IMG/VR virus record: IMGVR_UViG_3300026256_000121
Coordinates: 1 to 64,000 of that record
Strand: one strand, 5' to 3'
DNA length: 64,000 nucleotides
Source: a virus
The position numbers and the translations under genes are program-made. Shown piece by piece: positions 1 through 53,091 of this stretch. Each line of letters starts with the position of its first letter. Position 1 is the first letter of the stretch. Under the pieces are notes generated by a model, which saw nothing but the letters and a program-made list of their open reading frames with translations, did not search any database and was not told the origin of the DNA.

Positions 1-528
1 TTAATGGATTGTGAGCATTGGGATAAGTGCGTTGCTATTGTAGAGAAGATGAAAACTAGTAAACAACCTTGGATTATCGAAGCTAAAAGCATTGTTCAAT
101 TCCCAGGTAAAGATATTAACTCTTATACTCAAGAACAAATAGACTATGTTGCAAATACTATTAAAAGAGTTCCAGACCCAAAGTACATATTAAAACATAT
201 TGATGATTTTAATGTATTTCAAAGTGTTGCTTTATTTAATGATGGTACTGCAACAACTATGAAGTCTGAAGATTATATTCATAACAAATGGAATTATTTT
301 AATGATTGGACTTGTCATGTACCTATAGAAAATTTAGTTATAGTATATGATGGTACTGTTACAGGATCATGTAATGCAAATATTTTTAAAGATGCAAAAA
401 TTAACATTTTTTCAGAAACATTTAAAGAAGAATTTGAAGAAAAATCATTTGATTTAAAACCAATTAAATGTCCATTTAAGGTTTGTAATTGTTTACCTGA
501 TACTCATATTACGAAGTATATTTCGTAA
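1..528 (+). CDS. Radical SAM/SPASM-like protein, C-terminal part (cut by window edge)
   Basis: The reading frame is open to the left edge, so only the C-terminal ~175 residues are present and the radical SAM core lies outside. It contains DWTCHV, a second cysteine in GSCNAN, and a terminal cysteine cluster (CPFKVCNC) ending in ITKYIS. The radical SAM protein at 509-1405 ends in the same layout (CTREWCTC then ITKYTS), so the two are paralogues. By family knowledge such C-terminal cysteines often bind an auxiliary iron-sulfur cluster; the substrate is unknown. It converges on 509-1405 and the last codons overlap. Confidence 0.6.
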   Translation, partial: LMDCEHWDKCVAIVEKMKTSKQPWIIEAKSIVQFPGKDINSYTQEQIDYVANTIKRVPDPKYILKHIDDFNVFQSVALFNDGTATTMKSEDYIHNKWNYFNDWTCHVPIENLVIVYDGTVTGSCNANIFKDAKINIFSETFKEEFEEKSFDLKPIKCPFKVCNCLPDTHITKYIS

Positions 529-529
529 T
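508..529. terminator. Bidirectional hairpin shared by two convergent gene ends
   Basis: ATTACGAA and TTCGTAAT form a perfect 8-bp stem around a 6-base loop (GTATAT). The hairpin contains the last codons and stop codons of both convergent radical SAM genes. It has no long T-tract, so factor-independent termination is only a possibility. Confidence 0.45.
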
Positions 530-1405
530 ATTAATATCTGCGGCGCAAGTACACCATTCCCTAGTACACGTAATAGATTCAGTAGGTTTTTTAAAACTAC
601 CTTTATAAATGTTACCCAAACTACCGCCTACTCTACAAGTAGCACGGTGTACATCACCATCCCAATTTATCATTAAACTTTCCAGACCTGCCTGGCAAGT
701 CCAGCCTTTAAATCCGTTTGTTTTATTGATAAGCAAGTCGTTTACATTACATTCAATAGTGTTATCAATCAATGTATTAGTTGGAGGATTGTGATTTTCG
801 GTCTTTAAAAAGTCCAATTCTTCCTTAGAATAGCGTTCCAAATCTTCAAAAATATCATGTGTTTCAGTCCAGCGTATAGGACGTAAAGCATAGGGTATTC
901 CTGCATTAGAAAGGCGTCTACAAGCGTCTATAACGTCGTTTAAGCGTTGGTTAATCATCATGACATGTACAAGTACCATCTTGTTTTTAGATGTATTATG
1001 TACGCTTATAATGGTCTCTAAAACACGCTCCCAATCGTACTCAAAATGCAAACTAAACACTATATGATCTAGATATTTTTGGAGCATATCAACATAAAAG
1101 TTTTTGGTTCTTGTACCATTTGTAGTTACATTAATCCAGCTAACTTTAGGACGAGCATAGTTTAATAAAGTAGTAATATCAGGATGAACAAATGGTTCTC
1201 CTCCTGTAAAACTAATTCTTACATTTTTGAGTTTAGATAATTCGTCTACAGTATTTTTAAGAATTTGAATATCAGTATGTTCGCTAACCATGTCATGAAT
1301 TTCTGCTGGGCAATACGAACAGTCATAATTGCATCGTTTGCCTAGGTTCCATTCAACCTTAATACTTTCTGCATAATGGGGATATTTGTTTTCTACCTTA
1401 AACAT
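509..1405 (-). CDS. Radical SAM protein with C-terminal cysteine cluster
   Basis: The cluster motif CNYDCSYC (C25, C29, C32) is the CxxxCxxC signature that holds the SAM-cleaving [4Fe-4S] cluster, and TGGEP follows near residue 68. Additional cysteines sit around residues 237-257 and at C280, C285 and C287, in a SPASM/twitch-like position that may bind an auxiliary cluster. It is the last gene of a minus-strand operon and overlaps the gene before it by 13 bases. Its C-terminus matches the convergent protein at 1-528. Substrate unknown; peptide or sugar modification would be guesses. Confidence 0.8.
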   Translation of the reverse strand: MFKVENKYPHYAESIKVEWNLGKRCNYDCSYCPAEIHDMVSEHTDIQILKNTVDELSKLKNVRISFTGGEPFVHPDITTLLNYARPKVSWINVTTNGTRTKNFYVDMLQKYLDHIVFSLHFEYDWERVLETIISVHNTSKNKMVLVHVMMINQRLNDVIDACRRLSNAGIPYALRPIRWTETHDIFEDLERYSKEELDFLKTENHNPPTNTLIDNTIECNVNDLLINKTNGFKGWTCQAGLESLMINWDGDVHRATCRVGGSLGNIYKGSFKKPTESITCTREWCTCAADINITKYTS

Positions 1406-2220
1406 TGTATAGTTCCAATTTTATTATACACTGAAAGAGTTTCTATAATATCTTTATATGATTTATGATTTAATCCACTTTTAATAAGATTAATTTTAGC
1501 AACAGGAATCATCCCAAAGCTATTCTTTTTAAACGTATAACCTTTTTTGTTAAGCCATAGTTTGATTTGAAGCTTTCTTAAAGTATGCATAACCCAATTA
1601 ACACTTCTACCAAATTTTATCATAAAATCAGAACTATAATGTGTTTGTGGTACATCTGTAGTATATTGATCTTTGTCTTTAAAAATGTCTAACATATTTT
1701 TACCTACATGACAATAGTTAATATATACACAACCAAATTGCCATTTAAATGTAAAATCGTCATAGTTTGCTAACTCTAATTTTTGTCTAGGCCTATCTTT
1801 AAATGTTACAACAATGGTAGCCGCATTGCCTCTTTTTTGTGATTCATATTCGTGAATTAAGATATTAAATTGTTCAACAGCTACTTTTATTTCTTTAGGT
1901 GCATTGTTAAACCATTGTGTACCTTCAGTAATATCACCTCGTAAGTCTTCAAAGTACGTATGCAATAAATTTAAATCAGTGCAGTTAGTTACAAATATAT
2001 CTATTACTCTATCATATCTATTGATAATTTCAATTTGTTTATTAATTAATTTAATATAATATCTTTTATCCTGCCCTGGCCAATCAGTAAATCTTGTATT
2101 CTCATAAAGTTCGTTATGATTATATAATTCCTTATACCACTTTTTAGCAATATTAGTATCATATGTATCGAAGTATACCCATTTACTATCTTTATTATTT
2201 TTAAATAGTATTCTAAACAT
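1393..2220 (-). CDS. Conserved-looking protein of unknown function (275 aa)
   Basis: I do not recognise the family. The protein is soluble, rich in aromatic and basic residues, with a central stretch around TFKDRPRQKLELANYDDF followed by WQFGCVYINYCHVGK, which looks like a compact conserved core. It lies between two radical SAM genes and overlaps both (8 bases upstream, 13 downstream), so the three are probably translated together. A role as substrate-binding partner of the neighbouring radical SAM enzymes is possible but unproven. Confidence 0.6.
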   Translation of the reverse strand: MFRILFKNNKDSKWVYFDTYDTNIAKKWYKELYNHNELYENTRFTDWPGQDKRYYIKLINKQIEIINRYDRVIDIFVTNCTDLNLLHTYFEDLRGDITEGTQWFNNAPKEIKVAVEQFNILIHEYESQKRGNAATIVVTFKDRPRQKLELANYDDFTFKWQFGCVYINYCHVGKNMLDIFKDKDQYTTDVPQTHYSSDFMIKFGRSVNWVMHTLRKLQIKLWLNKKGYTFKKNSFGMIPVAKINLIKSGLNHKSYKDIIETLSVYNKIGTIQCLR

Positions 2221-3487
2221 AATTAGCGAACTCAGGATTGATTACATCAAATGGTCCTTGATTTCTTCTAGAGTCTAATGTTTTATTAAATGCAATACAG
2301 TCTTGCCAATATTCTGATAAATCTTTTGCTTCTAAAAAGTTTATATTGTCAGTAATTTGTTGTTGTGTAATCTTTTTCAATATAGGATGTTTTTTTACTA
2401 ACTTATAGCTATCTATCTTAGTATACATATCATTTAGTTGTCTAATTACATCATCTTTTAAAGGTTTAGGTAAAACTTGAGCACTTAATACTCTAGGGTA
2501 TTGTACTCTATGGCTATAAAACACTATCTCCAGATCATTTAAAAAGTATTCAATAACCTTTGGTAGTTGTAATATATTATTAGCTTGAACAGTAAATGCA
2601 CCAACAACTCTACTTACATTTGGAAATTGTTTAATTGCGTTAACGTTCTCGACAACTTCTTTAAAGTTACCGCCACTACGAATGTATTCATATATTTTCC
2701 ATAACCCGTCAATACTAACATTAACAGCTACACTTTTAAATTTAGGCCAATAGTCATAGATAGTGCGACCCCCTTTAATTCCTAATACAGTTCCGTTTGT
2801 AGCATACTTAATTTCAATATTATCGCCATACGGGGCTAACATATCTAAAATTTTATAATGCATTGGGTCCATTAACGGTTCACCACCAGCAAATTCTACT
2901 CGTCTAAAGTGCGGTAATAGTTTTTCAAAACTTTCCCACCAATTAGGACTATTATCAAACAAGCCTACATAAGGTGCTTTAGTTAATCCTAAGTTTTCTA
3001 CAGCCTTGACAAGGTAGTTGTTTTCAGCTTTATAATGATGTACAATAGAGTTCCAATCTTTCCATTGTGTACTATCTAACGGATTGCACATACGACATTT
3101 TAAATTACACAAATTATTAATTTTAATTTCCATTGTAGGTAATTCAAATGGCATTGTGTAATCGTCATTTAGTGTTTCTAATGCGTCTGGATATAAATTA
3201 ATTCTAGACTCTGGAATAACATCACTAATATGTCGTTGGCGTAAACTTTCTACACCCTGGTCTTCTAAATCAAAGCAAGGTTTACATACTTCAGGACGTT
3301 CGTTGTTTAATACTTGTTTACGAACTTTACGCATTGTATCATTGTTCCATGCTTCTTCTAAAGTTTCGTTTTGTATCCAACCAATAGGTTGACTACGACA
3401 GCAAATTTTAATTGCGCCGTCTTCTCGTGTTGCCAACCCCGTAAAAGGGTGCATACAATATGTACATGATTTTTTAGTTGAGGTCAT
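2213..3487 (-). CDS. Radical SAM protein with N-terminal SPASM/twitch-like domain
   Basis: The N-terminus has paired cysteines (C8/C11, C29/C30, C68/C71) resembling a SPASM-type auxiliary cluster domain placed ahead of the core. The radical SAM motif CNLKCRMC follows at C127, C131, C134, with AGGEP near residue 200. The order is reversed relative to classical SPASM enzymes such as PqqE, but I have seen this arrangement in marine phage radical SAM proteins. It overlaps the QueC-like gene by 14 bases. The reaction is unknown. Confidence 0.8.
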   Translation of the reverse strand: MTSTKKSCTYCMHPFTGLATREDGAIKICCRSQPIGWIQNETLEEAWNNDTMRKVRKQVLNNERPEVCKPCFDLEDQGVESLRQRHISDVIPESRINLYPDALETLNDDYTMPFELPTMEIKINNLCNLKCRMCNPLDSTQWKDWNSIVHHYKAENNYLVKAVENLGLTKAPYVGLFDNSPNWWESFEKLLPHFRRVEFAGGEPLMDPMHYKILDMLAPYGDNIEIKYATNGTVLGIKGGRTIYDYWPKFKSVAVNVSIDGLWKIYEYIRSGGNFKEVVENVNAIKQFPNVSRVVGAFTVQANNILQLPKVIEYFLNDLEIVFYSHRVQYPRVLSAQVLPKPLKDDVIRQLNDMYTKIDSYKLVKKHPILKKITQQQITDNINFLEAKDLSEYWQDCIAFNKTLDSRRNQGPFDVINPEFANYV

Positions 3488-4250
3488 TTTGTTTTATAGC
3501 CCAGTTGCGTTCTTTACACCAAAAACATTTTCCGCATTCTGGAACAGCTTGTCCTGGAACGTAAGTTTTATAATCTAGGTCACCAAAGACTTCAGGATAA
3601 TGTGTTTTATCACCTTCGCAACTACGAGTAAGTATTAATAGTCCTCTAATATTATGATCGTAATATTGTTTAATAATCCAGTCTTTACGTGTATAGATAA
3701 AAGGATGACAAACTGTTACACCCATGTGTTCTCTAACTAAAGGTGTTAAGTCTTCGGAAGGGTCAATATCTCTATCGTCTAGCTTACCTTTAAAGTCTTC
3801 AATAGGATTTTTGTTTACGCCGGCAAACCAAGCATCTAATCCGTATCTAAATGCAATATATTCTGCATGAGAACGTAGAATAATTTGATTACCACTTTTT
3901 AGTTTACCATATTCATCTATAATAGTAGGCCCTTTATCTCCCCATTCTAAATCAGGCGGAATAAAGTTTTGATGCATAGTAAATCTATGATCTGGAAATC
4001 TTACTTCTAACCAGTTATATACAGCTAATGCATTATATTTTTGCCAAGGTCTTGTTTTCCACATTCTAATATTAGTTAAAATATGTATATTAGTTGTATG
4101 GGGAACATTTGAACAAATTAAATAAGCCAATAATGCACTATCGGCTCCGCCACTTAAACTAATGCCAATATTTCTCCAGTTAGTTAATACAGGAAATTCT
4201 ACGTCATCATACTTAACAATATTTTCTGCATATTTTGTATCTTTTAGCAT
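3474..4250 (-). CDS. QueC-like PP-loop ATPase (candidate preQ0 synthase)
   Basis: SLSGGADSA near residue 31 is the PP-loop that binds ATP and releases pyrophosphate. Near the C-terminus, TRSCEGD and later CGKCFWCKER reproduce the zinc-site layout of QueC, which converts carboxy-deazaguanine to preQ0 with ammonia; here an insertion of about 25 residues separates the first cysteine from the others. The frame extends to a TTG at 4286, but the ATG at 4250 is preferred because the longer start would read through a perfect palindrome. FolE, QueE, QueD-like and DpdA-like genes elsewhere in the window support the call. Alternative: a PP-loop enzyme serving the adjacent radical SAM operon. Confidence 0.65.
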   Translation of the reverse strand: MLKDTKYAENIVKYDDVEFPVLTNWRNIGISLSGGADSALLAYLICSNVPHTTNIHILTNIRMWKTRPWQKYNALAVYNWLEVRFPDHRFTMHQNFIPPDLEWGDKGPTIIDEYGKLKSGNQIILRSHAEYIAFRYGLDAWFAGVNKNPIEDFKGKLDDRDIDPSEDLTPLVREHMGVTVCHPFIYTRKDWIIKQYYDHNIRGLLILTRSCEGDKTHYPEVFGDLDYKTYVPGQAVPECGKCFWCKERNWAIKQNDLN

Positions 4251-4267
4251 AACAGTATTTACCGCAT

Positions 4268-4283
4268 TTAACTGGCCAGTTAA
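4268..4283. promoter_or_regulatory. Perfect 16-bp palindrome between divergent operons
   Basis: TTAACTGGCCAGTTAA is its own reverse complement. It lies in the 54-base gap between the ATG of the QueC-like gene (4250) and the start of the plus-strand operon (4305), where a dimeric regulator could control both. No regulator gene was recognised in the window. Confidence 0.5.
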
Positions 4284-4304
4284 CAATTTACGGTAAGTAT
4301 ATAT

Positions 4305-4979
4305 ATGCTTTTGAAAAACACATTTATCTATGCTGATGCACAGGAAATCCTTGATATATTACCGCAATTAGAAGAAGGAAAAAACGAATTATCCAAACCA
4401 ACTGGAAATTTTTTTTATGATCCTTGGGAATTGTTACCGCAATATAAAGGTACAGCGTTAGAAGTTTTGTATAACAAGTTGCCCGAAGCAGGCCAGGCAA
4501 GAGTTATGTTAATAAAAGAAGGTACGTGTTATTCTGAACATGCCGACATTGATGATCGATACCATTTAACATTAGATGCAGAAAGTAGTTATTTAATCGA
4601 TATGGACAATCGCATTATGAACGCAACTACAGTTGACGATACAATTTTTTTAATGGATGGTAGTATTATCCATTCAGCCGTTAATTTTGGTCATCTACCT
4701 AGAGCAGAACTAGTAGTAAGGAAACTACTAACGCACAATAAACTAAAAGATCCAGCTAGGATTAATTTAACAGTTCGATACGACGTATTTGATTTACGTT
4801 ACCGTTTTGATATGGTGTTTAGCCCGTGGCTGAATCGTGCAAACAAAAAAGGGATAATTGATAACTTTGAGCCGATTAGTGAAACAGAACTAAATCTGGA
4901 TCTAGAAAAAAAATATATTGATGAGTTTAAAACATTAATAGAGGTGTCGGAGTTAGACATGGAGTTAAAAATTGACTGA
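4305..4979 (+). CDS. Cupin / Asp-Asn beta-hydroxylase-like protein
   Basis: A double-stranded beta-helix pattern is visible: EHADIDDRYHLTL gives an HxD-type metal pair around residue 78, and GSIIHSAVNFG supplies the distal histidine about 50 residues later, followed by RAELVVR. This matches the 2-His-1-carboxylate iron site of aspartyl/asparaginyl hydroxylase-like and cupin enzymes. It is the first gene of the plus-strand accessory operon. The substrate is unknown, and the C-terminal 80 residues are not recognised. Confidence 0.55.
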   Translation: MLLKNTFIYADAQEILDILPQLEEGKNELSKPTGNFFYDPWELLPQYKGTALEVLYNKLPEAGQARVMLIKEGTCYSEHADIDDRYHLTLDAESSYLIDMDNRIMNATTVDDTIFLMDGSIIHSAVNFGHLPRAELVVRKLLTHNKLKDPARINLTVRYDVFDLRYRFDMVFSPWLNRANKKGIIDNFEPISETELNLDLEKKYIDEFKTLIEVSELDMELKID

Positions 4980-5550
4980 AACTAAATGGAAAGAATTCCG
5001 TAAAATTATTGACGGTAAATTAGAAAGAGGTAGTTTAGCATACGAAGCCTATCAAAGTGAAAATCAATACTTAATGCATTTCTCTAATGAGCTTATATTC
5101 CAGAAAGAAATAGAGCATATTGAGAGATTATCTGAAAAAGATTATGCACCAGATATAGATAAAATAGATATTGAAAACATGAAGATCTATCTTCCACACC
5201 ATGCCTGGTACAATAACTTAAACCATTTAATTCATGAAGGTAGAGCACCTGATAATTGGAGAGAACAAGTTAGTAGAATTATTGAAGACTTAGAACGTGG
5301 AAATATTTATAAATTAAATTTGTTTACACATTGTTTTTATTTAGAAGAAGGAAAAATGCATCTAATGGATCTTTATGGATGTGTATTCCCAGATCAAATT
5401 GTTATGTTTGATCATATTAATCCTATTTTATCAAAACGATCAAGAGACCTTTTTTTACAATTCAAAGAATTAAATGGTATAGTTGATATGAAGGAAGCAT
5501 ATAGATACAGCAAAATTAATAATGTGTGGGGATTAAATGAAGATAGTTAA
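4972..5550 (+). CDS. Kinase-fold-like protein (192 aa)
   Basis: The TTG start overlaps the previous stop, with GGAG upstream at good spacing. The second half (NIYKLNLFTHCFYLEEGKMH followed by LMDLYGC) resembles the catalytic loop plus metal-binding Asp region of small kinase-like proteins, but the canonical HxD and DFG residues are not intact. The protein at 8335-9042 shows a similar pattern, so the operon may hold two divergent copies. Activity is doubtful. Confidence 0.4.
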   Translation: MTETKWKEFRKIIDGKLERGSLAYEAYQSENQYLMHFSNELIFQKEIEHIERLSEKDYAPDIDKIDIENMKIYLPHHAWYNNLNHLIHEGRAPDNWREQVSRIIEDLERGNIYKLNLFTHCFYLEEGKMHLMDLYGCVFPDQIVMFDHINPILSKRSRDLFLQFKELNGIVDMKEAYRYSKINNVWGLNEDS

Positions 5551-6058
5551 TAAATGTACCCTTATTAATTGGAATCCGGTCTTAGAAGAAATTAGAGACA
5601 AGCCAGGTCTTAATGCTCCTCTTAGATTACCGATAGATGAACCAGAAGTACAAAAGATGATAGAAGATTTAAAAGACTATCCAGCAGAATCAATTGAATG
5701 GTTTAATTATTATCCCGGAGTAGATTTTAATGTTCGTGTAGTAAAGGAATTTAGTGATCTTGTAAACAAAGAATGCGTTCGTGCGTGGATTAGCAAAGTT
5801 AATCCAGGAAAAACAGCACCGTGGCATTGGGATTATGATGATAATGAAGAAGCATATTTAAAGAAGGGCGAGTTAGTTAGATATCATGCAAGTATAAGTA
5901 AACCTTCTCCAGGCCATGTGTTTATGTTAGGTGATGAATGTTTTTATAACGAAGCTCAAGGAACAATCCATGAATGGCCTAATTATAAGTTATACCATGC
6001 TGGAGCAAACTGTGGGAGCGAACCAAAGTTCCAATTTAACTTTCTAGGATATAGATAA
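5537..6058 (+). CDS. 2-oxoglutarate/Fe(II) oxygenase-like protein
   Basis: APWHWDYDD contains an HxD iron-binding pair near residues 98-100, and LYHAGANCG gives the distal histidine near residue 155. FQFNFLGYR at the end takes the place of the usual 2-oxoglutarate-binding strand. The layout fits the aspartyl/asparaginyl beta-hydroxylase-like branch. It overlaps the previous gene by 14 bases and abuts the aminotransferase-like gene (stop and start share a base). Substrate unknown. Confidence 0.6.
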   Translation: MKIVNKCTLINWNPVLEEIRDKPGLNAPLRLPIDEPEVQKMIEDLKDYPAESIEWFNYYPGVDFNVRVVKEFSDLVNKECVRAWISKVNPGKTAPWHWDYDDNEEAYLKKGELVRYHASISKPSPGHVFMLGDECFYNEAQGTIHEWPNYKLYHAGANCGSEPKFQFNFLGYR

Positions 6059-6966
6059 TGAATCTTATACAAGTTCCTGACACATATACAGAAGAACATA
6101 TCAACGCTGATAGGCTAGGAGGAATGGTCCCTTTATTTGATAAAAGAATAGAGGAATTAATACATAATTTAAAAACTAAGAATATTGAATTTTTAGATCA
6201 TACATTAATGACGTTAAAGGAAAACGTTGGTGAAGATTTATTTGAAAGATTTAAACATAATTTTACTAATCATATAACAGCATCTATGTATAACCATTTA
6301 ACTGGGTTTGATGCATTTGAAGAAGTAAATATTATTGCAGGCTGTACACAATTTTTTGATGACCTATATGTTATGAATAAAGAAATACAGGTTTTAAAAA
6401 ATGAATACAAATATCATGAATTAATAAATCCTAATTTACAATATAAAACAATTGAATCATTAAGAGCCAACGTTCCGTTAGTTATTAGTTTACCTTTTAG
6501 TTTTCACGGTCAAGAACATCCAGAGATGAATAAAATTTTAGAAGTATGTTTGCAAAGACATATACCGTTGCATATTGATTCAGCATGGATTCCTGCTAGT
6601 AAAGATATCTGTTTTAATTATGATCATCCTGCTATACATTCTTTTGCTATAAGCATGAGTAAAGGATATGGTACTGCTGGTTGGAATCGTATAGGAATAC
6701 GTTGGAAAAGAAAACGTAATGGTAGTGATACTATTAATATATTAAAAGATTATCATCAAATAACTACATACCCTGTAGCAGTTGGATTGTATTTTTTAGA
6801 TAACTTATTACCAGATCATTTGTGGTCTACACATAAAGATCGTAATGAAAAGATTTGTAAAGACTTTGGTTTAACACAAACTAAAGCAATTCATATGGCC
6901 CGAAAGGGCGAAATTAATTATGGGCTTTCGCCTTTAATTAGATATTTGGAGTATAATCATGATTAG
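6058..6966 (+). CDS. PLP-dependent aminotransferase-like protein (fold type I)
   Basis: PLHIDSAWIPA carries the aspartate that pairs with the PLP ring nitrogen, and SFAISMSKGYGTAGW carries the Schiff-base lysine followed by the glycine/arginine stretch typical of aspartate and histidinol-phosphate aminotransferases. At 302 residues it is shorter than the usual 350-400, with a reduced N-terminal part. It lies between two oxygenase-like genes, so an amino-acid or amino-sugar side chain may be the common substrate; that is inference. Confidence 0.65.
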   Translation: MNLIQVPDTYTEEHINADRLGGMVPLFDKRIEELIHNLKTKNIEFLDHTLMTLKENVGEDLFERFKHNFTNHITASMYNHLTGFDAFEEVNIIAGCTQFFDDLYVMNKEIQVLKNEYKYHELINPNLQYKTIESLRANVPLVISLPFSFHGQEHPEMNKILEVCLQRHIPLHIDSAWIPASKDICFNYDHPAIHSFAISMSKGYGTAGWNRIGIRWKRKRNGSDTINILKDYHQITTYPVAVGLYFLDNLLPDHLWSTHKDRNEKICKDFGLTQTKAIHMARKGEINYGLSPLIRYLEYNHD

Positions 6967-7768
6967 AGGAATTGGTGGGCAACCATATATTGCATTAGAT
7001 AATTATTTAGATGTAGACGGGTTTAAAGAATTACACCCAGAAATTTGCAAAGGATTTGCTTTAGCAAGGGACTATGCAAAAGAAGGCACATGGATGAAGC
7101 CTGGGTTTACGTTTGACGACATGAGCTATATTATAGATTGGAAACCTATATACAAAGCATTTGCGGAATATGAAGCATTACCTGATAACGATCCTATTAA
7201 GGTTCAAGGTGCAGAGTTATTTCCAAAAGATTTTAAAGATTATAAACAAAGAAATTTATTTACAAGATATTTAAAATCAGCCTTAGGAGCAAACGATCCT
7301 TACATATATTATTTTCTTTGGGAAGAAGGCGACTGGCACAAACGCAATGCCAAACGTACTCCTACACCAGAACAACAATATTTTCCTGGTGTTGTAAAGT
7401 GGGTTACAGAATTAATTGAAAAAAATGTTATTACACAAATAGGACGAGTTATATTTTTTCATTGTGAACATGGTGGTAAAGCATTTGAACACAGAGACCT
7501 AGATGGCTCTAAAGGTACCGAACAAGGCTTTAGTCCACATAACAATGAGTTTATTCATATAAGGTATAGAACTAAAAGAGGCTTCTATATATGGGATCCT
7601 GAAGCAAAAAACAAAACATACATTAATGCCAATGCGGCATTTTGGAATGATCAAGATTGGCATGGTGGTGATGTCAGCAACGAACAAGAATATAGCTTAC
7701 GAATTGACTGTGTGTTCACAGACAAGTTCAGAAAGCAGATAGGTATAGCTCACCTAGAGCATTACTAA
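6959..7768 (+). CDS. 2-oxoglutarate/Fe(II) oxygenase-like protein
   Basis: AFEHRDLDG supplies an HxD pair near residue 180, DQDWHGGDVSN the distal histidine near residue 239, and YSLRIDC the arginine that usually binds the 2-oxoglutarate carboxylate. All three elements of the iron-dependent oxygenase site are therefore in order and at plausible spacing. It overlaps the aminotransferase-like gene by 8 bases. Substrate unknown. Confidence 0.65.
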   Translation: MIRGIGGQPYIALDNYLDVDGFKELHPEICKGFALARDYAKEGTWMKPGFTFDDMSYIIDWKPIYKAFAEYEALPDNDPIKVQGAELFPKDFKDYKQRNLFTRYLKSALGANDPYIYYFLWEEGDWHKRNAKRTPTPEQQYFPGVVKWVTELIEKNVITQIGRVIFFHCEHGGKAFEHRDLDGSKGTEQGFSPHNNEFIHIRYRTKRGFYIWDPEAKNKTYINANAAFWNDQDWHGGDVSNEQEYSLRIDCVFTDKFRKQIGIAHLEHY

Positions 7769-7769
7769 T

Positions 7770-8342
7770 ATGGCTTTTAAGTTAATACCATACTCGGATA
7801 CATTAGACCTTACTGAATTTTACGCAACCGCACAACAAAAAGGATTTGTTAATAACAATTCTAAAAAGATGTTAGTTGATTCTTTAGCTAAAGAAGATAG
7901 GTTTCAAGTTTGGATGTTAATGTGGAAAGAAAAAGTTATAGGTTGTACAGCGGCACATTCGTTCCCTGAAATGGGACCTGATAGTTATCGTATTGCTTGT
8001 CGTATATGTACATTTACAGATCAATTGCCTAAAGAATATAAAGGATTACGTGGTACTGATACAATAAGAAATCATCAAACTACTACACAACAATTTTTTC
8101 AACCTGCAGGTATTAAATGGGCAGGTCCTAATAAGAATTACTATGTAACAACAAATGAAAATGCAGAAGGTACCCAACGATTAGTACATAAAATTGTTGC
8201 TCCTACGTTAGAAGAAACAGGAGTATATACAAAGGCAAGAGTATTAGAGTACAGAGGTACACGCCAAACTGTATGGCGGGTTAATGCTGATATATATTTT
8301 AAACAATTACAGACTGCAAAAAAATGGCCAACTTATGAGTAA
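7770..8342 (+). CDS. GNAT acetyltransferase-like protein
   Basis: The centre (VWMLMWKEKVIGCTAAHSFP, then YRIACRICTFTDQLP) resembles the beta-strand core of GNAT N-acetyltransferases, with ARVLEYRGTRQTVWRVNADI at the end as a late strand. The acetyl-CoA loop (Q/RxxGxG/A) is not clearly seen. It starts one base after the upstream stop and overlaps the next gene. The call is tentative. Confidence 0.4.
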   Translation: MAFKLIPYSDTLDLTEFYATAQQKGFVNNNSKKMLVDSLAKEDRFQVWMLMWKEKVIGCTAAHSFPEMGPDSYRIACRICTFTDQLPKEYKGLRGTDTIRNHQTTTQQFFQPAGIKWAGPNKNYYVTTNENAEGTQRLVHKIVAPTLEETGVYTKARVLEYRGTRQTVWRVNADIYFKQLQTAKKWPTYE

Positions 8343-9042
8343 ATATAATTATTATTATAATAACGTCCCTGGAAAAGGATTATGTAGAAATAATTTAGTC
8401 TATACAAGCCTTATGAATGAGGATCAAACTGAGTTTATACAATGGTATTATAATGATACTGAATATCATAAAGGACATAATCAAGTAGTTGATCCTGTAT
8501 TAATGAATCAAAAATGGGAACGAGAACTTGTATTTTTACAGTTTATGGAAGTAGAAGCACCTAACTTAATTCCCAAAATTATTACTATTAATAATGAAGA
8601 ACGTAAAATTAAATTAGCAGTTGACGGCCCAGATTTTTGGGAACAATCAAGCTGTTCAGTAAATGGGTTTGATGAAACCTGTCCGGATTGGCAAGATCAA
8701 ATGTTAGATATTATTGCTAAACACGCCGAGCTTGGTCTTTATAAATTTAGTTTACACCCTAGTAGTTATTTTGTCGTAAATGGTATATTAAAAAGTATAA
8801 ATTATTTCTTTTGTTATTCAGAAGAAGAACCACAGATTGCTGTTAAAGATGTGTTAAGTCATATTAGCGAAGATAGGAAGCAAAAATTATTTCCTGCAAT
8901 GGCTAATTTGGGCATTAGCTTTGAACAGCCAGAGGAGTTTTTTAATTTGCAAATGTTATGTTTTGAAAGTTTTAGGGAAGATTATCCTAGAGAGTTTATA
9001 GAAGAAGCAAAGGAAATCTATGTGCGAGATAGCAGATTATGA
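8335..9042 (+). CDS. Kinase-fold-like protein (235 aa)
   Basis: The ATG at 8335 (MSKYNYYY), overlapping the previous stop, is preferred over an upstream ATG deep in the preceding gene. WERELVFLQFME then KIITINNEERKIKLAV resembles the N-lobe of small kinases, and LGLYKFSLHPSSYFVVNG resembles a degenerate catalytic loop. It shares this style with 4972-5550. Canonical catalytic residues are not clear, so it may be a pseudokinase or unrelated. Confidence 0.4.
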   Translation: MSKYNYYYNNVPGKGLCRNNLVYTSLMNEDQTEFIQWYYNDTEYHKGHNQVVDPVLMNQKWERELVFLQFMEVEAPNLIPKIITINNEERKIKLAVDGPDFWEQSSCSVNGFDETCPDWQDQMLDIIAKHAELGLYKFSLHPSSYFVVNGILKSINYFFCYSEEEPQIAVKDVLSHISEDRKQKLFPAMANLGISFEQPEEFFNLQMLCFESFREDYPREFIEEAKEIYVRDSRL

Positions 9043-10804: not shown

Positions 10805-11887
10805 ATGAAAGATCGAGAAACATTAAGTTTATGTCATACGTGTTATAGACACATACCAGCTGACCGTGTTACTAAAGATAATGGAGTTTATCTTATTAAA
10901 ACGTGTCCCGAACATGGTCATATGGAAGAATGTATTGAAAAGGATGTTGAATTTTACAATAGTTTAATATATAATAGAGTTACTACTGGAAAGAATACTA
11001 TAGATGAAGATCATGATAGTAATTATGAAAATTGTATTTTATTTGAAGTAACTGATCGTTGTAATTTAGAATGTCCTCATTGTTATCTACAACCCGATAA
11101 TAAAATAATAGATAAATCTTTTGACCATATCTTTAAAATGATAACGGAGCAAACACGATCTACTATGGATACTGTATTCCTTTCAGGTGCTGAATGTACA
11201 GTACGTAAAGATTTACCTGAATTAATTAAAGCTATTACAGACAGAGGAAATGATGTTTGTATTATGACTAATGGTGTTAAACTTTCCAAAAGAAATTATG
11301 TTAAGTCACTTGTAGACGCTGGCCTTAAAATGGCTGTTCTAAGTTTAAACCATGAGTCTTATCAAGGTAAAGTAGTACATGGAAAGCAAGTAGCTGGTAT
11401 AGATATTTGTAATGAAGAAGGTATGTGTGTAGAGAAAATATTTTATACAGTAGAACATATAGACCAAGTAGACGATGTAATGGAAGAAATACAAGCTATG
11501 GGTCTAAAAAATCACCCAAGAACTGAATATAGAATTAGAGCTGGTTCAGATATAGGTAGAACTCCAGATGAACCTAGATTCTTTTTAAGTGATCACGTAA
11601 AACTTATAAAAAGTATTGCTGATAAAAAAGGATGGACTTGGGAGAAAATACCAGGAGACGATAATTTATATCATTATATGGTTAAGATTAACGGTCTTGT
11701 TCATAGAATTATTCAATGGTGTGATGCTAGAACTATTGATATGGAACAATTAAAATGTGGACCTTATGCTTATTTTGTTCCGGGAAAACCTGTAAGTAAC
11801 TTTTTACATCAAATCATCTTACGTGATGCACATATTAATAATGGGTTACCATTATTAGATACTGTACCTGATCGTTATATAGCTTAA
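10805..11887 (+). CDS. Radical SAM protein of MJ0619/Tes type
   Basis: The N-terminal domain (LCHTCYRHIPA, then IKTCPEHGH) is characteristic of the radical SAM group that includes the archaeal pterin methylase MJ0619 and tetraether lipid synthase Tes. The core motif CNLECPHC follows near residue 87, with SGAECT in the place of GGEPT. At 360 residues it is shorter than archaeal members. Being downstream of a desaturase makes a lipid substrate thinkable, and the deazaguanine/pterin enzymes elsewhere make a pterin thinkable; neither is shown. It ends overlapping the convergent tail-fibre gene by 4 bases. Confidence 0.7.
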   Translation: MKDRETLSLCHTCYRHIPADRVTKDNGVYLIKTCPEHGHMEECIEKDVEFYNSLIYNRVTTGKNTIDEDHDSNYENCILFEVTDRCNLECPHCYLQPDNKIIDKSFDHIFKMITEQTRSTMDTVFLSGAECTVRKDLPELIKAITDRGNDVCIMTNGVKLSKRNYVKSLVDAGLKMAVLSLNHESYQGKVVHGKQVAGIDICNEEGMCVEKIFYTVEHIDQVDDVMEEIQAMGLKNHPRTEYRIRAGSDIGRTPDEPRFFLSDHVKLIKSIADKKGWTWEKIPGDDNLYHYMVKINGLVHRIIQWCDARTIDMEQLKCGPYAYFVPGKPVSNFLHQIILRDAHINNGLPLLDTVPDRYIA

Positions 11888-13242
11888 TGTAAGTCGACCC
11901 AAGCCACGCCAGTGCGTCCTTGGAATTTAGAATCAGTAGTATTGTAGATTATCATACCATCTGTTGGTGTTAATGCATCTCTTTCAACTGTAGTTAAGTT
12001 ACCAATTTTCATATAACCAGTTACTTGTGCATTACCTGTAACGTCTAAGTTTGTATCAGAGTTTGCAACTAGTGTTCCACCAACACAAAGTCTTCCACCA
12101 CTGTCAACTGATATACCAGCCCAAGTTCCACCATTGTCTGGTGTTGATATAATGAAAATCTTACCTGGTACTGCACCGTTTGAAACTGTTGCACCATCTT
12201 CAACAGAAAATTGAACTAGACTTGATACTGTGTCTTCGTTAGTGCCGTCGTGTCCGTGTACTTTAATTGATGTTAGCTCGTCGCCTGCCTGTAAAGCTGT
12301 TTTAGTTGCTAGGTCGCCTCTTGAAACTTTGTAAACTATACCTGTAGATTGTGTTCCAGTTGATAAACTTTCTACTTGAAGAAATTTACCTGCCGCCGAA
12401 CCTGCTTTAAAAATAAGTCCTTGAGTTTCTATATCAGTATCTTTACCAATAGTTAAATATCTACCAATTCCTGCTTGTGATGTAATATCAAGAACGCCTT
12501 CACTAAATGTAAGTGTTCCGTTACTAAGTGTTCCGTTAATTCCGTCTACTAATACAGTTGAGTCATCACCAAATACAGTACCTTGAACATCGCCTACTAT
12601 ACTTCCTACGAAACTACTAGCTTGTACTACTCCACTAAATGTACCTTGTCCAGCAACAACGGCTTTTGATGTTGCATTATAAAAATAGCTATCATCAACG
12701 GCTTTAACATCACCTTTAAGAATACCTGTAGCATTTAAGGCTCCAGTTGCTCTATTAAGTAAAACTGTACTATCGTCTCCGACAATATTTGCATTAACAC
12801 TTGGGGAAATTATATCATCAGTAACATGAACAGTATTAGCCCAAATTTGATTAAATTTGTTAGTGCTAGATCCAAGATTTCTTGCACCGTCAACATCAGG
12901 AAGAACATGGCTTTCTACTTTAGCTAAAAAACTAACAGTATCGCTAGGTGCATCACCTATAATAAGGTTGCCGCCTAATGTTAAATTTCCATCTGCTGTA
13001 ATATTGCCTGTTGCTGTAATACTACCAGTAATATTAATATTACCAGTACCTGTTAAGTCGTAATTATTTAGATCAACGTTAGAACCAAAAGCCGTACCAG
13101 CAGTATCAACTGGATTACCACCTACAGTAGTTCCATCACCTATATACAGTCTTTTAGTATCTGTAGTATAGACTAATTCACCGTCAGCAGGCGTAATTAA
13201 GCCTCGTTCGCTGTTTGTACCTCTTCTTAGTCTTAAAGCCAT
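11884..13242 (-). CDS. Tail-fibre protein with major-tropism-determinant-like N-terminus
   Basis: The first 45 residues (LRRGTNSERG, PADGELVYTTDTKRLYIGDG) match the N-terminal domain seen in phage tail fibres and the major tropism determinant. The rest is a Gly/Thr/Ser/Asn-rich repetitive beta region (for example NITGSITATGNITADGNL), typical of trimeric fibres. The C-terminus (TDGMIIYNTTDSKFQGRTG) is a common fibre-tip element. A late-type promoter box lies 29 bases upstream. Confidence 0.85.
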   Translation of the reverse strand: MALRLRRGTNSERGLITPADGELVYTTDTKRLYIGDGTTVGGNPVDTAGTAFGSNVDLNNYDLTGTGNINITGSITATGNITADGNLTLGGNLIIGDAPSDTVSFLAKVESHVLPDVDGARNLGSSTNKFNQIWANTVHVTDDIISPSVNANIVGDDSTVLLNRATGALNATGILKGDVKAVDDSYFYNATSKAVVAGQGTFSGVVQASSFVGSIVGDVQGTVFGDDSTVLVDGINGTLSNGTLTFSEGVLDITSQAGIGRYLTIGKDTDIETQGLIFKAGSAAGKFLQVESLSTGTQSTGIVYKVSRGDLATKTALQAGDELTSIKVHGHDGTNEDTVSSLVQFSVEDGATVSNGAVPGKIFIISTPDNGGTWAGISVDSGGRLCVGGTLVANSDTNLDVTGNAQVTGYMKIGNLTTVERDALTPTDGMIIYNTTDSKFQGRTGVAWVDLH

Positions 13243-21003: not shown

Positions 21004-21870
21004 TTAGGTTCCCCAACTGTTTCCGAAGATGTCGACGTGTAGTCTCGGGGTATACCTCCATCCCCTCCCCATGGCAAGGGTGGCAACGGTTTTGGCGTTT
21101 TCTTGATACTCTTCATAGCATCCACCCACCGCCATACAGTATACTGGACATTCCACTTTAGCATCTCTATACTCGGCAACCGCTTTTTCAACTTCGTCGA
21201 CGTCGACTTTATCAGCAACCACAAATTTAAGATACAAGTGAGTATTGGGTACAGTATAATATGAATTAGCAATTTCAGGCTTGATAGCATCACTCCATAG
21301 CTCGCCACTGACACTAAGTTTCGGAGAGCAAGACCAAGTTGTATGAAATCTAGCTTTAGTTGAGATGTAGTCTTTGAAATCATCTCTAAGTTCTTGCGTT
21401 GTGTTCGTTTCAAATGTAACATTTTTTAAATCCTCCATTCGAGGATGTTCAAATAGCTCGATGTACATCCTTTGCCAACCAAGCAATGGTTCACCCCCTG
21501 TTATTACTAGGTGGATATCTTGCCCATTATCGCAAGTCCATTTGCCTTCTGGTGTAAGAGAAAGTAATTCTTCAACTAGCTCATCTAGTTGATAATCCGT
21601 AGTAAACTTCTTAAATCTAGGATCCCATGATGCATAACTATCACAACCTGTATGCACTAATGGCAAATCTTTCAATACTTTGTACTTATCCGGGTTTTCC
21701 TGGTGGTCCTTAGCAATTAGATCATAGTCATTCGCCAATTCACCACGTGGCATACCAAAACCACGGCATTTAAAATTACAACCAAACATACGTAAAAATA
21801 CCGACGGTACACCAACAAATCTACCCTCGCCTTGTACACTATAGAATGATTCGCATACTCTAGCCTTCAT
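21004..21870 (-). CDS. queE: 7-carboxy-7-deazaguanine synthase QueE, with split cysteine motif
   Basis: SVQGEGRFVG at residues 11-20 and FLRMFGCNFKC identify QueE, the radical SAM enzyme converting 6-carboxy-tetrahydropterin to carboxy-deazaguanine. VITGGEPLLGWQ near residue 130 and the end PRLHVDIFGNSWG also fit. The cluster motif is unusual: C31 and C35 keep the CxxxC spacing, but the third cysteine is missing there (F38). It appears as C76 in HTGCDSYASWD, which matches the canonical WCDTxYxW, after an insertion of about 38 residues. This explains the larger size (288 against about 220). folE lies just upstream. Confidence 0.85.
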   Translation of the reverse strand: MKARVCESFYSVQGEGRFVGVPSVFLRMFGCNFKCRGFGMPRGELANDYDLIAKDHQENPDKYKVLKDLPLVHTGCDSYASWDPRFKKFTTDYQLDELVEELLSLTPEGKWTCDNGQDIHLVITGGEPLLGWQRMYIELFEHPRMEDLKNVTFETNTTQELRDDFKDYISTKARFHTTWSCSPKLSVSGELWSDAIKPEIANSYYTVPNTHLYLKFVVADKVDVDEVEKAVAEYRDAKVECPVYCMAVGGCYEEYQENAKTVATLAMGRGWRYTPRLHVDIFGNSWGT

Positions 21871-22018
21871 ATATCTTCTCCCTTATAACAGCCTTATCGT
21901 AGCCTAATCTGGACATCTCGTCCAAAAACTTTTCTTCTGTCCAAGCCCCATACTCAAACATTTGTATTGCTTTGTCCACTTTACGATCCCAAAACTCTCT
22001 GACAGGTGATACACTCAT
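21860..22018 (-). CDS. Small protein between folE and queE (52 aa)
   Basis: The ATG overlaps the folE stop (ATGA), and the frame ends 11 bases inside queE, so translation of the three genes appears coupled. The peptide is charged and aromatic, starting MSVSPVREFWDRKVDKAI and containing FEYGAWTEEKFLDEMSRLG. It is not recognised. Its place inside the deazaguanine operon suggests an accessory role in that pathway. Confidence 0.6.
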   Translation of the reverse strand: MSVSPVREFWDRKVDKAIQMFEYGAWTEEKFLDEMSRLGYDKAVIREKIYEG

Positions 22019-22695
22019 TTTGAATGTCCTTTCATGCTTAAACAGATGTCATAAAATTCTTGTTTTAGTGCTGGATCTTCGCTAAATGCACCAAGCATAA
22101 TAGCAGTAGTCATATCACTCTCGTGTTCTTTAACTCCACGTTGTGTCATGCAATGATGTTCTGCTTTTACTACTACTGCTACATTAGGTGTTTTTGCAAA
22201 CCTAACTAATTCGTTTGCAATCTCAGTCGTCATTTCTTCTTGTATTTGTGGGCGTTCTGCAATATGGTGTACTAGTCTATTAAACTTACTAAGACCAATA
22301 ACTTCTTCTTCAGGTACAATACCTATCCATGCATTACCTACAATATTCTGAAAATGGTGGGCACAAGTGGACCTAATACTTATAGGCCCACTCGTGTACA
22401 GTGATTTGTAACCCATATTTGGAAAACTAGTAATAGCAGGTCTAGGTTTAAATCTGCCAGAAAATATTTCTCTGACATACATCTTTGCTACTCGTCTAGC
22501 AGTATCGTTGGTATTATGATCGTGTTCAGTATCAATTACTAGTGCGTCTAATACATCACGAAATGCCTCTGCGACTTCATCTTGCAGTAAAGCTATTTCT
22601 CCTTCGTGTACAAACTTACTAATGTTATCGTTGGAATGAAACCGTTCACCTGCTTTTACTAGACGTTGTCTTATTATATCACTTATCTTTTCCAA
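22015..22695 (-). CDS. folE: GTP cyclohydrolase I (FolE)
   Basis: STCAHHFQNIVGNAWIGIVP and VVKAEHHCMTQRGVKEHES carry the zinc-binding Cys/His residues and active site of FolE, which makes dihydroneopterin triphosphate from GTP, the first step to preQ0. The length of 226 is typical. The start is TTG at 22695 with CGGAGAA upstream. It heads the operon folE - 52-aa ORF - queE behind a perfect sigma-70 promoter. Confidence 0.95.
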   Translation of the reverse strand: MEKISDIIRQRLVKAGERFHSNDNISKFVHEGEIALLQDEVAEAFRDVLDALVIDTEHDHNTNDTARRVAKMYVREIFSGRFKPRPAITSFPNMGYKSLYTSGPISIRSTCAHHFQNIVGNAWIGIVPEEEVIGLSKFNRLVHHIAERPQIQEEMTTEIANELVRFAKTPNVAVVVKAEHHCMTQRGVKEHESDMTTAIMLGAFSEDPALKQEFYDICLSMKGHSK

Positions 22696-29072: not shown

Positions 29073-29270
29073 TTATTTTTTCATGAATTTTGCCAATTTT
29101 TCTATTTGATCTTTGACCTTAAGTTTTAATTTTTTATGCCTTTTTATTAATTCTTTTGTTTGCCAACCTCTGTAGGCGTTTTCTTCACGTTCGTTTTCCA
29201 TTTGTTCTACTTTGTTATGTAGATAACGGTGTTCGTTCTCTAATCTCTTCTGTTCCTTGCTCTTGTTCAT
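29073..29270 (-). CDS. YdcH/DUF465-like small coiled-coil protein (65 aa)
   Basis: EHRYLHNKVEQMENERE and LIKRHKKLKLKVKDQIEKL fit the DUF465 (YdcH) pattern of a short two-helix coiled coil. A longer frame reaches 29420 but lies inside the upstream gene; the ATG at 29270 is preferred. It overlaps the DpdA-like gene by 56 bases in another frame. Function unknown. Confidence 0.5.
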   Translation of the reverse strand: MNKSKEQKRLENEHRYLHNKVEQMENEREENAYRGWQTKELIKRHKKLKLKVKDQIEKLAKFMKK

Positions 29271-30801
29271 TTTCAAGTTCCTCCAACTTGCTTTCTTGTA
29301 ACTCGGGTTCATTATCAGAATCATCTTCAGTACTGTTAATGTCATCACCTTCATAAAAAAGATTCTTATAAAATGTACTTGAGTTAATAGTCTTTTTACC
29401 CGTTGCACCTCTAGTACCAATAATAGATAACCAAAATCGATTATATTCTTCTATTACTGCATTTGCTTCATCTTTGTTACTAGTTGCAAATATTGCCTCA
29501 ACGACATCTTTGAAATAAGTCCTATCAAATTTTTCTTCAACTAACATTTTAGGAATTACACCATTGTCATATTGTCTATTTGCTTCTTGTACAGCATTAA
29601 TATGATGCCAAACGTTATGCCCCATTTGAATTGCATAACTAAATGAATCCCAACTAGTTTTTCCTTCTTTACCTATCTTATTTAGGTCCCCGGGCTTATA
29701 ATAACATATATCTGAAACTTTTAATCCGTCCGTTATAGGAGAATCTTCAAAGTTTTTAAATATACCATCTTGTAATACTGCATCTTTAAATAAACGAGAA
29801 TCTGTAGCATATTTCTTATCATCAACACTCGGCACCATTCGATACACCCATTTAGATCTATCTTCTGTTTCTGTTTGAATATAAACTTGTCCATTTGCAG
29901 TTGCTAAGAAAGGACTTGCACAATCAAATGTAACTGTAAAGTTTGGATTATGATATTTACGAACTGCTCGTTGTACGTCAGTTAGTAAGGCCGCCCATTC
30001 AAGTTTAGATGTACCTAAGAAGTGCATGAAGTCATGTTTACCTGTTTCTAATAGTCCATCAAAACGTAATGCTACAAGTCTTTTTAATACTAGGTGTATG
30101 TCACACATATTTTGACCACCCATCGACCAACCTTTAAAATGATCGCTATATTTTTTAGGATCACAATAGTCTTTCATTTGCTGATACCAATCTTCTGCAT
30201 CAGCATGGTTTTCGCCTTGTAAAACATTTAAGAATTTACAATTACCATTTTGTTCTTTCATAAAGTAATCGTTATTAATGCGTGTAGCATTAACGGCATC
30301 TTGATAATTGTCAATTCCTGTTGCTTTTGCTCCTGCTGGAGAACGTGATACCCAAGCTGGAATATCTAAAATCATTCCATAGTCCATATACTCATCCATC
30401 CAAGCAAGAACTTGTTCACGTTTCTTTTTAGCTTTAGGACAGTTAGGATCTTTCCAATCGCCTTCCCAAACACCTTTACCAATTTGGAAACCACCTGAGT
30501 CACCAAGTAGCCAACTATTATCACGATCCCTATTACGAATCATATCTTCTTTAGGTGAATGTTTGTTTATATCTAATTCGGCATGACCTGCACTATATAA
30601 ACTCCAATGATAGTTGAATAAACCCTTTTGTGGATTTAACCAATTCATACTCTCTACATCATTTGGAAAGTTAGAAGGGATTCTAGTTTTATCAACATAC
30701 TCCCCGTGGCGTTGTTTTCCTATATAGGTTGCGAAAAAGCCACTTAATGCTGGAAGAAAAACTGCATAATCTTTTTGTGCTTTTGTTAGATCTTTGTTCA
30801 T
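29215..30801 (-). CDS. dpdA: DpdA-like DNA 7-deazaguanine transglycosylase
   Basis: TGT-fold motifs are in order: LGDSGGFQIG (catalytic and binding Asp region, near residue 98), GWSMGGQN (near 223), HFLGTSKLEWAALL, and VTFDCASPF carrying the second Asp of the TGT active site. TGT enzymes exchange guanine for 7-deazaguanine; the phage DpdA branch acts on DNA. The length of 528 exceeds bacterial Tgt (about 375), and the acidic C-terminus is an extra. FolE, QueD-like, QueE and QueC-like genes supply the base. No clear CxCxxC zinc site was noted. Confidence 0.8.
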   Translation of the reverse strand: MNKDLTKAQKDYAVFLPALSGFFATYIGKQRHGEYVDKTRIPSNFPNDVESMNWLNPQKGLFNYHWSLYSAGHAELDINKHSPKEDMIRNRDRDNSWLLGDSGGFQIGKGVWEGDWKDPNCPKAKKKREQVLAWMDEYMDYGMILDIPAWVSRSPAGAKATGIDNYQDAVNATRINNDYFMKEQNGNCKFLNVLQGENHADAEDWYQQMKDYCDPKKYSDHFKGWSMGGQNMCDIHLVLKRLVALRFDGLLETGKHDFMHFLGTSKLEWAALLTDVQRAVRKYHNPNFTVTFDCASPFLATANGQVYIQTETEDRSKWVYRMVPSVDDKKYATDSRLFKDAVLQDGIFKNFEDSPITDGLKVSDICYYKPGDLNKIGKEGKTSWDSFSYAIQMGHNVWHHINAVQEANRQYDNGVIPKMLVEEKFDRTYFKDVVEAIFATSNKDEANAVIEEYNRFWLSIIGTRGATGKKTINSSTFYKNLFYEGDDINSTEDDSDNEPELQESKLEELENEQEQGTEEIRERTPLST

Positions 30802-52367: not shown

Positions 52368-52862
52368 CTATTGATATGGCACATAATTTGGATTCGCTAT
52401 AGATGGACAATCCGGATTAATTTGTGACTTTTTAGTTGCCGCAATTTCCTTCTCTGTTAGCGGAGATCCAGTAGCAATTTCAATGCATCTGTTAGCATTA
52501 GTATTAAGTTTGTTTATAGTTTTATCTACTAATTTAGGCTTTTGTTCTGCAAGGTTACCAAGATCACGTTTTTTACCTGATGCATTTAATTTATTAAATC
52601 TATCATTTAATGCTAATTTTTCTTTAGTAAGTTGTTGATTAGTGTGTTCTAGTTCTGCCTTAATTTTATTAATAGCTTCCCAATCAGCTTTCATTTGGGC
52701 AATTACGGCTTTTTGTGAATCAACACTTTCTATTAGTTTTGAATTATTTGCTTCACTTACTTCTAAGTCAGCTTTAAGTGTTTTTACATACATAAATCCA
52801 CCTCCAGCACCAGCTAAAAGCATTAATACTAATACTACTTTAATACCGCTAATTATTCCCAT
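52368..52862 (-). CDS. Inner-membrane i-spanin (Rz-like) candidate
   Basis: One membrane segment (IKVVLVLMLLAGAGGGFMYV) is followed by a long periplasmic coiled coil (residues ~28-100). The C-terminus contains two cysteines (NRCIEIATG and NPDCPS). The topology and length fit Rz-type i-spanins, and it is 9 bases upstream of the o-spanin candidate. It would fuse inner and outer membranes at lysis. Confidence 0.65.
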   Translation of the reverse strand: MGIISGIKVVLVLMLLAGAGGGFMYVKTLKADLEVSEANNSKLIESVDSQKAVIAQMKADWEAINKIKAELEHTNQQLTKEKLALNDRFNKLNASGKKRDLGNLAEQKPKLVDKTINKLNTNANRCIEIATGSPLTEKEIAATKKSQINPDCPSIANPNYVPYQ

Positions 52863-53091
52863 TTACCTTCTCCACAAGATCATAAAGATCCTGGACTGTA
52901 TTAACATCGCCTACAATATTTTCATCTATCTTAATTGAAAGTTTTTCTTCAATAGCTGTAATAAGTTCAATATAGTCAAAGTCATCACCGTCTAAATCAT
53001 CAATGATATGACTAGTAGCTTCTATGTTTTTATCAGCCCCATATTGTGCATGAAGTACTTCTAAAATTGCTTTTTGGTTATCTATGTTCAC
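52849..53091 (-). CDS. Acyl-carrier-protein-like protein lacking the attachment serine (80 aa)
   Basis: The GTG at 53091 overlaps the upstream stop (GTGA) with CGGAGAAG before it, giving an 80-residue protein of exact ACP size; a longer frame to 53142 is less likely. IIDDLDGDDFDYIELITAIE aligns with the ACP core, but the phosphopantetheine-bearing Ser of DSL is Asp (DDF), confirmed by codon GAC. The usual carrier function would be lost. It sits in the lysis module beside endolysin. Confidence 0.7.
   Translation of the reverse strand: MNIDNQKAILEVLHAQYGADKNIEATSHIIDDLDGDDFDYIELITAIEEKLSIKIDENIVGDVNTVQDLYDLVEKVNGNN

Follow-up and report, generated by a model that had tools for sequence, protein, structure and literature searches.

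A QueC-fold ATPase and two radical SAM enzymes encoded together in a hypervariable island of uncultivated large phages

Results and Discussion

Organization of the locus

The window analysed here is a stretch of 64,000 nucleotides, the first 64 kb of the 74,451-base IMG/VR virus record IMGVR_UViG_3300026256_000121. Close to its left end it carries four overlapping open reading frames (ORFs) on the minus strand, called E, D, C and B in the order of transcription (Table 1), which lie at the border of a far larger island. E codes for a protein with the fold of QueC, D and B for radical S-adenosylmethionine (SAM) enzymes and C for a protein of no assigned family. Comparison with related viral contigs gives strong grounds to regard E, D and B as a real module, separate from the canonical synthesis of 7-cyano-7-deazaguanine (preQ0); C is an optional component of this module.

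An earlier note on this DNA had described the four genes as a tightly coupled operon with overlaps of 8-14 bases, and the values measured (14 bases for E/D, 8 for D/C and 13 for C/B) agree with it. The overlaps are not a matter of chance, since they were conserved among distinct relatives: E>D in 36 of 38 pairs, D>C in 46/46, C>B in 48/50 and D>B, always on the same strand, in 74/74. Two starts can be considered for E, a TTG giving 270 amino acids (aa) and the ATG at 4250 giving 258 aa. Since the close relatives begin at the latter, ATG 4250 is probably the true start; the residue numbers below follow the TTG.

Linkage of E, D and B

A single pattern scan of viral contigs yielded 225 E relatives; of these the 80 best were fetched, and separate scans with D, B and C as queries were added. 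The linkage counts were restricted to distinct proteins or loci in which 5 kb or more could be seen on either side. The E-bearing loci contained D in 39 of 40 and B in 40 of 40 cases, and the association was found in the reverse direction as well: E and B accompanied D in 25/27 and 27/27 loci, while E and D accompanied B in 33/34 and 34/34. E was retained even where it was encoded on the other strand and separated from D and B by several genes. Among the larger records with D, B or C, E was present in 17 of 19, one of the 17 being a weak, divergent copy. Twelve contigs were picked for a DpdA-like gene only, and orthologues of D and B were observed in just one of them, the one which carries E.

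Thus the neighbourhood survey proposed in the earlier note shows that E travels with D and B, in both directions, and not with folE/queE. As for the possibility that the genes usually occur apart in related phages, E, D and B were found together, and it is only C that may be missing. The idea of all four genes as one unit was not supported: C was present in only about a fifth to a quarter of the islands, where it stands between D and B. All 32 loci with C had D and B, and 22 of the 32 had E.

Linkage of this kind could also arise by hitch-hiking, if unrelated genes had amassed in the hypervariable island of one phage lineage. The island is indeed variable and the correlations of the pairwise distances are only moderate (E-D 0.51, B-D 0.52, E-B 0.25), but E, D and B stay joined through rearrangement, strand change and wide divergence, while neighbours such as C, I, K and O are present in some islands and absent from others. 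This explanation is disfavoured and we consider it very improbable.

Distribution of E

Relatives of E were found in viral contigs only, in marine and freshwater uncultivated phages. A pattern-based scan of 84,980 cellular species, which has limited sensitivity, gave 249 pattern matches and none of them was confirmed. No match was obtained at 1e-5 in 50,697 GenBank phages, and when the diverged E member L028 was compared with the GenBank phages up to an E-value of 1, only a chance match to a portal protein appeared. By its DNA polymerase, which shares 50.6% identity with the enzyme of Sinorhizobium phage Phosso (469 kb), the virus is nearer to jumbo phages; E also occurs in a 357-kb record.

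Other proteins of related type were observed in these phages. A second divergent QueC-like family (233 aa, SGGIDS, C..CxxCxxC) has a K-family gene and a tail-fibre-like ORF as neighbours, and further divergent QueC-like copies are present in another record (contigs L168, 1423-2124, and G076, 4750-6209); the fold has therefore diversified within this group of phages. A 170-kb E-carrying contig (L082, 1345-2232) encodes a PP-loop protein (295 aa, LSGGLDS) beside SET-domain-like and subtilase-like ORFs.

Fold and substrate pocket of E

The term QueC-like, used for E in the earlier note, is valid at the level of the fold and the superfamily only. The closest structure to the AlphaFold model (predicted local distance difference test score, pLDDT, 90) in VIA comparisons was QueC 3bl5 (Z 14.7, 3.4 A over 182 residues), followed by QueC 2pg3 (13.8), TilS (13.4), Cap9 (13.3) and QatC (12.7); Z differences below 1 were taken as ties. 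The SGGADS phosphate-binding loop, which is of the SGGxDS type, and the four zinc cysteines (C223/C251/C254/C257) were invariant across 35 E members, the spacing of the cysteines being C(x)20CxxCxxC in most members and longer in the window protein. The score of the window protein with PF06508 was 16.7 bits, under the gathering cutoff of 22 bits, and 28 of the 35 relatives matched this profile (best E-value 4e-6). A sequence-profile search of the PDB with E and C gave chance matches only.

The canonical QueC signatures include C(x)8CxxCxxC, YxQxHxxE, VPxRN and YPDC (PMC13329287). None of the last three, which are substrate motifs, was conserved in the invariant columns of the 35 E members. Aligned with E. 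coli QueC by hhalign, at a weak score but with the flanking motifs as anchors, E keeps the zinc cysteines and Arg172; GYPDCR falls against GxLxDR, with YPDC on variable positions, and SGNQ stands at PGRN, the position of VPxRN. A Tyr/Asp pair binds the deazaguanine in Cap9 and QueC, and it is replaced by threonines in QatC (PMC13279940). Since all three substrate motifs are absent, E is probably not a preQ0 synthase. The loss of the residues which recognise 7-carboxy-7-deazaguanine (CDG) in QueC and Cap9 (PMC13279940, PMC13329287) suggests that E binds another substrate and, as the earlier note had proposed, that a different product is likely. E thus shares with canonical QueC the fold, the loop and the four-Cys zinc site, and differs from it in the zinc spacing, the substrate motifs and the partners, which are queD/queE for queC and two radical SAM genes for E. 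Only the four zinc cysteines are invariant cysteines in E, which would argue against thiolation or sulfur transfer as in the TtuA-type relatives. What the fold can reasonably suggest is ATP-dependent carboxyl activation, and nothing beyond that; the nitrile- or amide-bearing product considered in the earlier note was not supported.

Proteins D, B and C

The earlier assignment of two radical SAM proteins was confirmed. D scored 322 bits with NF033640 (cutoff 170) and was also above the PF04055 cutoff; it has the motif CNLKCRMC (CxxxCxxC) and invariant C11, C29, C30, C68 and C71 in its N-terminal domain. It is a member of the NF033640 twitch radical SAM family, in which it represents a separate subfamily linked to E and B. 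The cellular relatives found were 24-36% identical, one of them lying in the radical SAM array of contig L417 described below, and E was absent from all three of their neighbourhoods that were checked. B scored 54.3 bits with PF04055 (cutoff 29.5) and contains CNYDCSYC (CxxxCxxC); its C-terminus is SPASM-like (PF13186 15.4 bits, below the cutoff of 21.5), with C237, C257, C280, C285 and C287 invariant. The relatives of B were 46-86% identical to the window protein. About nine radical SAM genes, mostly of the N-twitch type, together with a B-like gene were seen in a contig of a marine gammaproteobacterial metagenome-assembled genome (L417, 1072-13055) with no E within 6 kb; this is possibly a mis-binned phage contig.

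Nothing significant was obtained for C in the PDB by Foldseek, and no family could be assigned. A cyclophilin-like barrel was considered and rejected, the VIA matches (Z up to 9.7, approx. 132 of 275 residues) being too near to background. Structural relatives of C are found in uncultured Caudovirales and in the jumbo Agrobacterium phage Atu_ph07.

Comparison with QatC and Cap9

QatC (qatABCD) and Cap9 (type IV CBASS, cyclic-oligonucleotide-based antiphage signalling system) share with E a repurposed QueC fold. The main rival of the explanation given below is that E is a protein ligase of this kind, joining a nucleobase or another carboxylate to a protein, while D and B modify the protein or peptide, perhaps the adjacent tail fibre. 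Both enzymes are among the folds closest to E, the zinc spacing of most E members is near to the C(x)19 of QatC (C334/C354/C357/C360, PMC13279940), and the Tyr/Asp pair is lost in E as in QatC. FolE and QueE would make phage CDG available. Radical SAM enzymes with SPASM or twitch domains often modify peptides. On the other hand, no island family with the conserved Met-Gly N-terminus of the Cap9/QatC targets and no conserved small precursor ORF was found in the islands. The N- and C-terminal extensions of QatC (about 400 aa) are absent from E (about 230-270 aa), and Cap9 (about 185 aa) keeps YxDC and Y/FxQ(x)5E, motifs which E does not have. Unlike these systems, E is phage-encoded and has radical SAM partners. 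No qatA, qatB or qatD neighbours were recognised in the islands by eye, a PADLOC scan of the neighbours not having been made. In our judgement protein conjugation is an unlikely explanation, though the strongest of the alternatives.

Relation to the deazaguanine genes

The window also encodes FolE, a QueE-like protein and a TGT/DpdA-like protein. The name of the last is taken from its motifs only, since no match was found for it in Pfam, PHROG or PDB. Its gene (window 29215-30801) has relatives in 582 viral contigs and in jumbo phages of the PA5oct/Paride type.

E could also be regarded as the divergent QueC of the phage in a DNA modification with FolE, QueE and the DpdA-like protein, in which D and B elaborate the base further. 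FolE was present in all five examined E-carrying contigs longer than 100 kb, and the DpdA-like gene in 10 of 18 E-carrying records. No QueD was detected in these 18 records and no full-length canonical QueC in the E-carrying records searched, which leaves the preQ0 step vacant. However, of 39 E-carrying records 11 contained FolE, and in each of the 11 it was 15-46 kb away from E (17.8 kb in the window), as the earlier note had remarked on the remoteness of the QueC-like gene from the other deazaguanine genes; therefore it is the radical SAM genes with which E travels. Moreover, 19 of 20 DpdA-like-carrying relatives were without full E and canonical QueC was above the cutoff in 0/12, thus the deazaguanine pathway does not depend on E. 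Considering also the missing CDG motifs, a role of E in the deazaguanine pathway is unlikely and the divergent QueC seems a doubtful explanation.

The surrounding island

For a survey of the island, 40 distinct examples were used that extend for at least 6.5 kb to either side. They contained 4-10 radical SAM genes (median 6) in approx. 16.7 kb, including a second N-twitch paralogue, D2, in 90%. The other families counted were F (36/40, 90%), the kinase-like L/G (34/40, 85%), J (33/40, 82%), the 2-oxoglutarate (2OG) oxygenase-like H (78%), a methyltransferase (68%) and K (18/40).

Table 1. Genes of the module, of the island and of the deazaguanine pathway in the window
Gene	Position	Strand	Assignment	Details
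A	1..528	+	3' part of another radical SAM gene, truncated at contig start	
B	509..1405	-	Radical SAM protein, SPASM-like tail	298 aa; PF04055 54.3 bits
C	1393..2220	-	Optional, no assigned family, phages only	275 aa; no PDB match by Foldseek
D	2213..3487	-	Radical SAM protein with N-terminal twitch domain	424 aa; NF033640 322 bits
E	3474..4286	-	QueC-family PP-loop ATPase	270 aa from TTG; SGGADS, Zn tetrad; model pLDDT 90
F	4305..4979	+	2OG oxygenase of the Asp/Arg beta-hydroxylase family, oriented divergently from E	PF05118 23.8 bits (cutoff 22.6)
G	4972..5550	+	Unassigned, related to L	
H	5537..6058	+	2OG-oxygenase-like	HxD...H motif by inspection only; no Pfam match
I	6058..6966	+	Pyridoxal phosphate (PLP) aminotransferase-like	SMSKGYG by inspection only; valine-pyruvate transaminase model 0.019
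J	6959..7768	+	2OG-oxygenase-like	HRD...WHGG...R motif by inspection only
K	7770..8342	+	GNAT-like	Inspection only; no Pfam/PHROG match
L	8284..9042	+	Kinase/phosphotransferase-like	Inspection only; no Pfam/PHROG match
O	10805..11887	+	Radical SAM with HMPTM-type N-terminal zinc ribbon	PF23545 and PF04055
P	11884..13242	-	Tail-fibre/receptor-binding protein, Mtd_N domain, right island border	PF18454 45.5 bits (cutoff 26.3)
QueE-like	21004..21870	-	QueE-like	phrog_2076, E-value 1.4e-49; 17 kb from E
FolE	22015..22695	-	FolE	PF01227, E-value 1.5e-47; phrog_2197; 17.8 kb from E
DpdA-like	29215..30801	-	TGT/DpdA-like	528 aa; motifs only (GDSGGFQ, FDCASP)

On the left side, A is convergent with B, with a tail-to-tail overlap of 20 bases. 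The complete A has 332 aa in the same-species contig G001, and a full-length relative matches PF04055 with an E-value of 3.4e-12. The island extends in G001 into two UDPG_MGDP_dh genes (UDP-glucose/GDP-mannose dehydrogenases) and two more N-twitch radical SAM genes, followed further on by GT8-like genes (glycogenin profile 1.7e-4), four tail-fibre-like ORFs and an ORF of at least 3788 aa. The module of this species thus lies between tail-fibre genes, the fibre-like ORFs of G001 on one side and P on the other. In 7 of 8 large genomes a putative glycosyltransferase of at least 60% identity, GT227, is encoded at a distance of approx. 8-11 kb from E.

Several further genes were recorded. Genes for a fatty acid desaturase (PF00487, 9039-9782) and an FTR1 iron permease (PF03239, 9779-10435) overlap in the plus-strand run, and the permease could supply iron to the many iron enzymes of the island. 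O belongs to the class of the pterin methyltransferase and tetraether-lipid synthase relatives. By eye, an acyl-carrier-protein-like ORF with DGDD in place of the usual DSL serine motif (52849-53142) and tandem paralogous 2OG-oxygenase-like genes of 200 and 284 aa (59193-60636) were recognised elsewhere in the window.

With so many genes of the radical SAM, 2OG oxygenase, methyltransferase and PLP-like kinds, the island resembles a tailoring cluster for natural products, and the module might make a diffusible small molecule or a modified peptide. Such a product is not very plausible: there was no core-building enzyme, no small conserved ORF of the ribosomally synthesised and post-translationally modified peptide (RiPP) precursor kind in the islands, and no exporter was noticed in the stretches read.

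The surroundings are similar to islands described in marine phages. The host recognition cluster of T4-like marine phages is a hypervariable island with glycosyltransferases between the tail-fibre module and VrlC; the species of the window has fibre-like ORFs and the 3788-aa-plus ORF on one side, the Mtd_N fibre on the other, and the UDPG dehydrogenases and GT8-like genes. The corresponding cluster of pelagimyophages, in the accessible part of its description (PMC7029224), is likewise a hypervariable island by the tail fibres; it contains radical SAM cassettes, a UDP-glucose dehydrogenase and glycosyltransferases of the GT8 type, and a module of QueC-like and radical SAM genes does not appear in that part. 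The polymerase found here is nearest to that of jumbo phages such as Phosso, unlike the pelagimyophage setting. Many radical SAM genes, 12 in number, are also present in the genome of another large phage, T4-like and of marine origin (PMC5332604); the portion of that report at hand treats them solely as iron-sulfur proteins and contains neither a module nor a QueC-like gene. No description of the E-D-B module was found in the literature searches.

Proposed function

The explanation we favour, tentatively, is that E, D and B are a three-enzyme biosynthetic module making a surface decoration, on a host envelope glycan or on a phage adhesin. E would adenylate, at the expense of ATP, a carboxyl other than that of CDG and hand the activated carboxyl to ammonia or an amine, giving an amide-type bond. 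The 5'-deoxyadenosyl radicals of D and B would oxidise, rearrange or cross-link the same substrate, and C, where present, may act as an accessory protein. The product would be an unusual decoration of the glycan or adhesin during infection, and it may change receptor use or block rival phages. A decoration role is suggested by the tail-fibre genes on the flanks of the hypervariable island and by the company of the module there, which consists of further radical SAM enzymes together with 2OG oxygenases, a methyltransferase, glycosyltransferases and UDP-sugar dehydrogenases; the output is probably a decoration rather than the known modified DNA base.

Several observations weigh against this surface decoration. 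The location is weak functional evidence, since hypervariable islands collect unrelated genes. GT227 had no confident family match in Pfam and PDB. The UDP-sugar dehydrogenases were present in records with and without E and were not enriched with E; because of this the uronic acids, chemically attractive as substrates, lack specific support and were set aside. With FolE present in all five of the large contigs mentioned above, a tie to deazaguanine metabolism is conceivable. What has been established is the module with its linkage, folds or families and location, and the loss of the QueC signature; the reaction, the substrate and the role are inferred.

The interpretation of the earlier note is thus partly supported. 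Hundreds of environmental contigs carry E (225 were found by a single pattern search), and none of the isolated phages searched has it. QueC-fold enzymes have lately been found repurposed in bacterial anti-phage immunity, and here the fold is seen on the phage side, with two radical SAM enzymes. Surveys count queC and radical SAM genes among the common viral auxiliary metabolic genes (PMC9301287); with the E family, there are now QueC-like phage genes that probably have a function other than preQ0 synthesis. It is conceivable, though somewhat less likely than not, that an undescribed pathway is common among uncultivated large phages, with a ligase of the QueC fold and two dedicated radical SAM enzymes making a new group for display on the envelope of the infected cell or on the phage adhesin. 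The tight three-gene unit offers a small, testable target for new phage chemistry.

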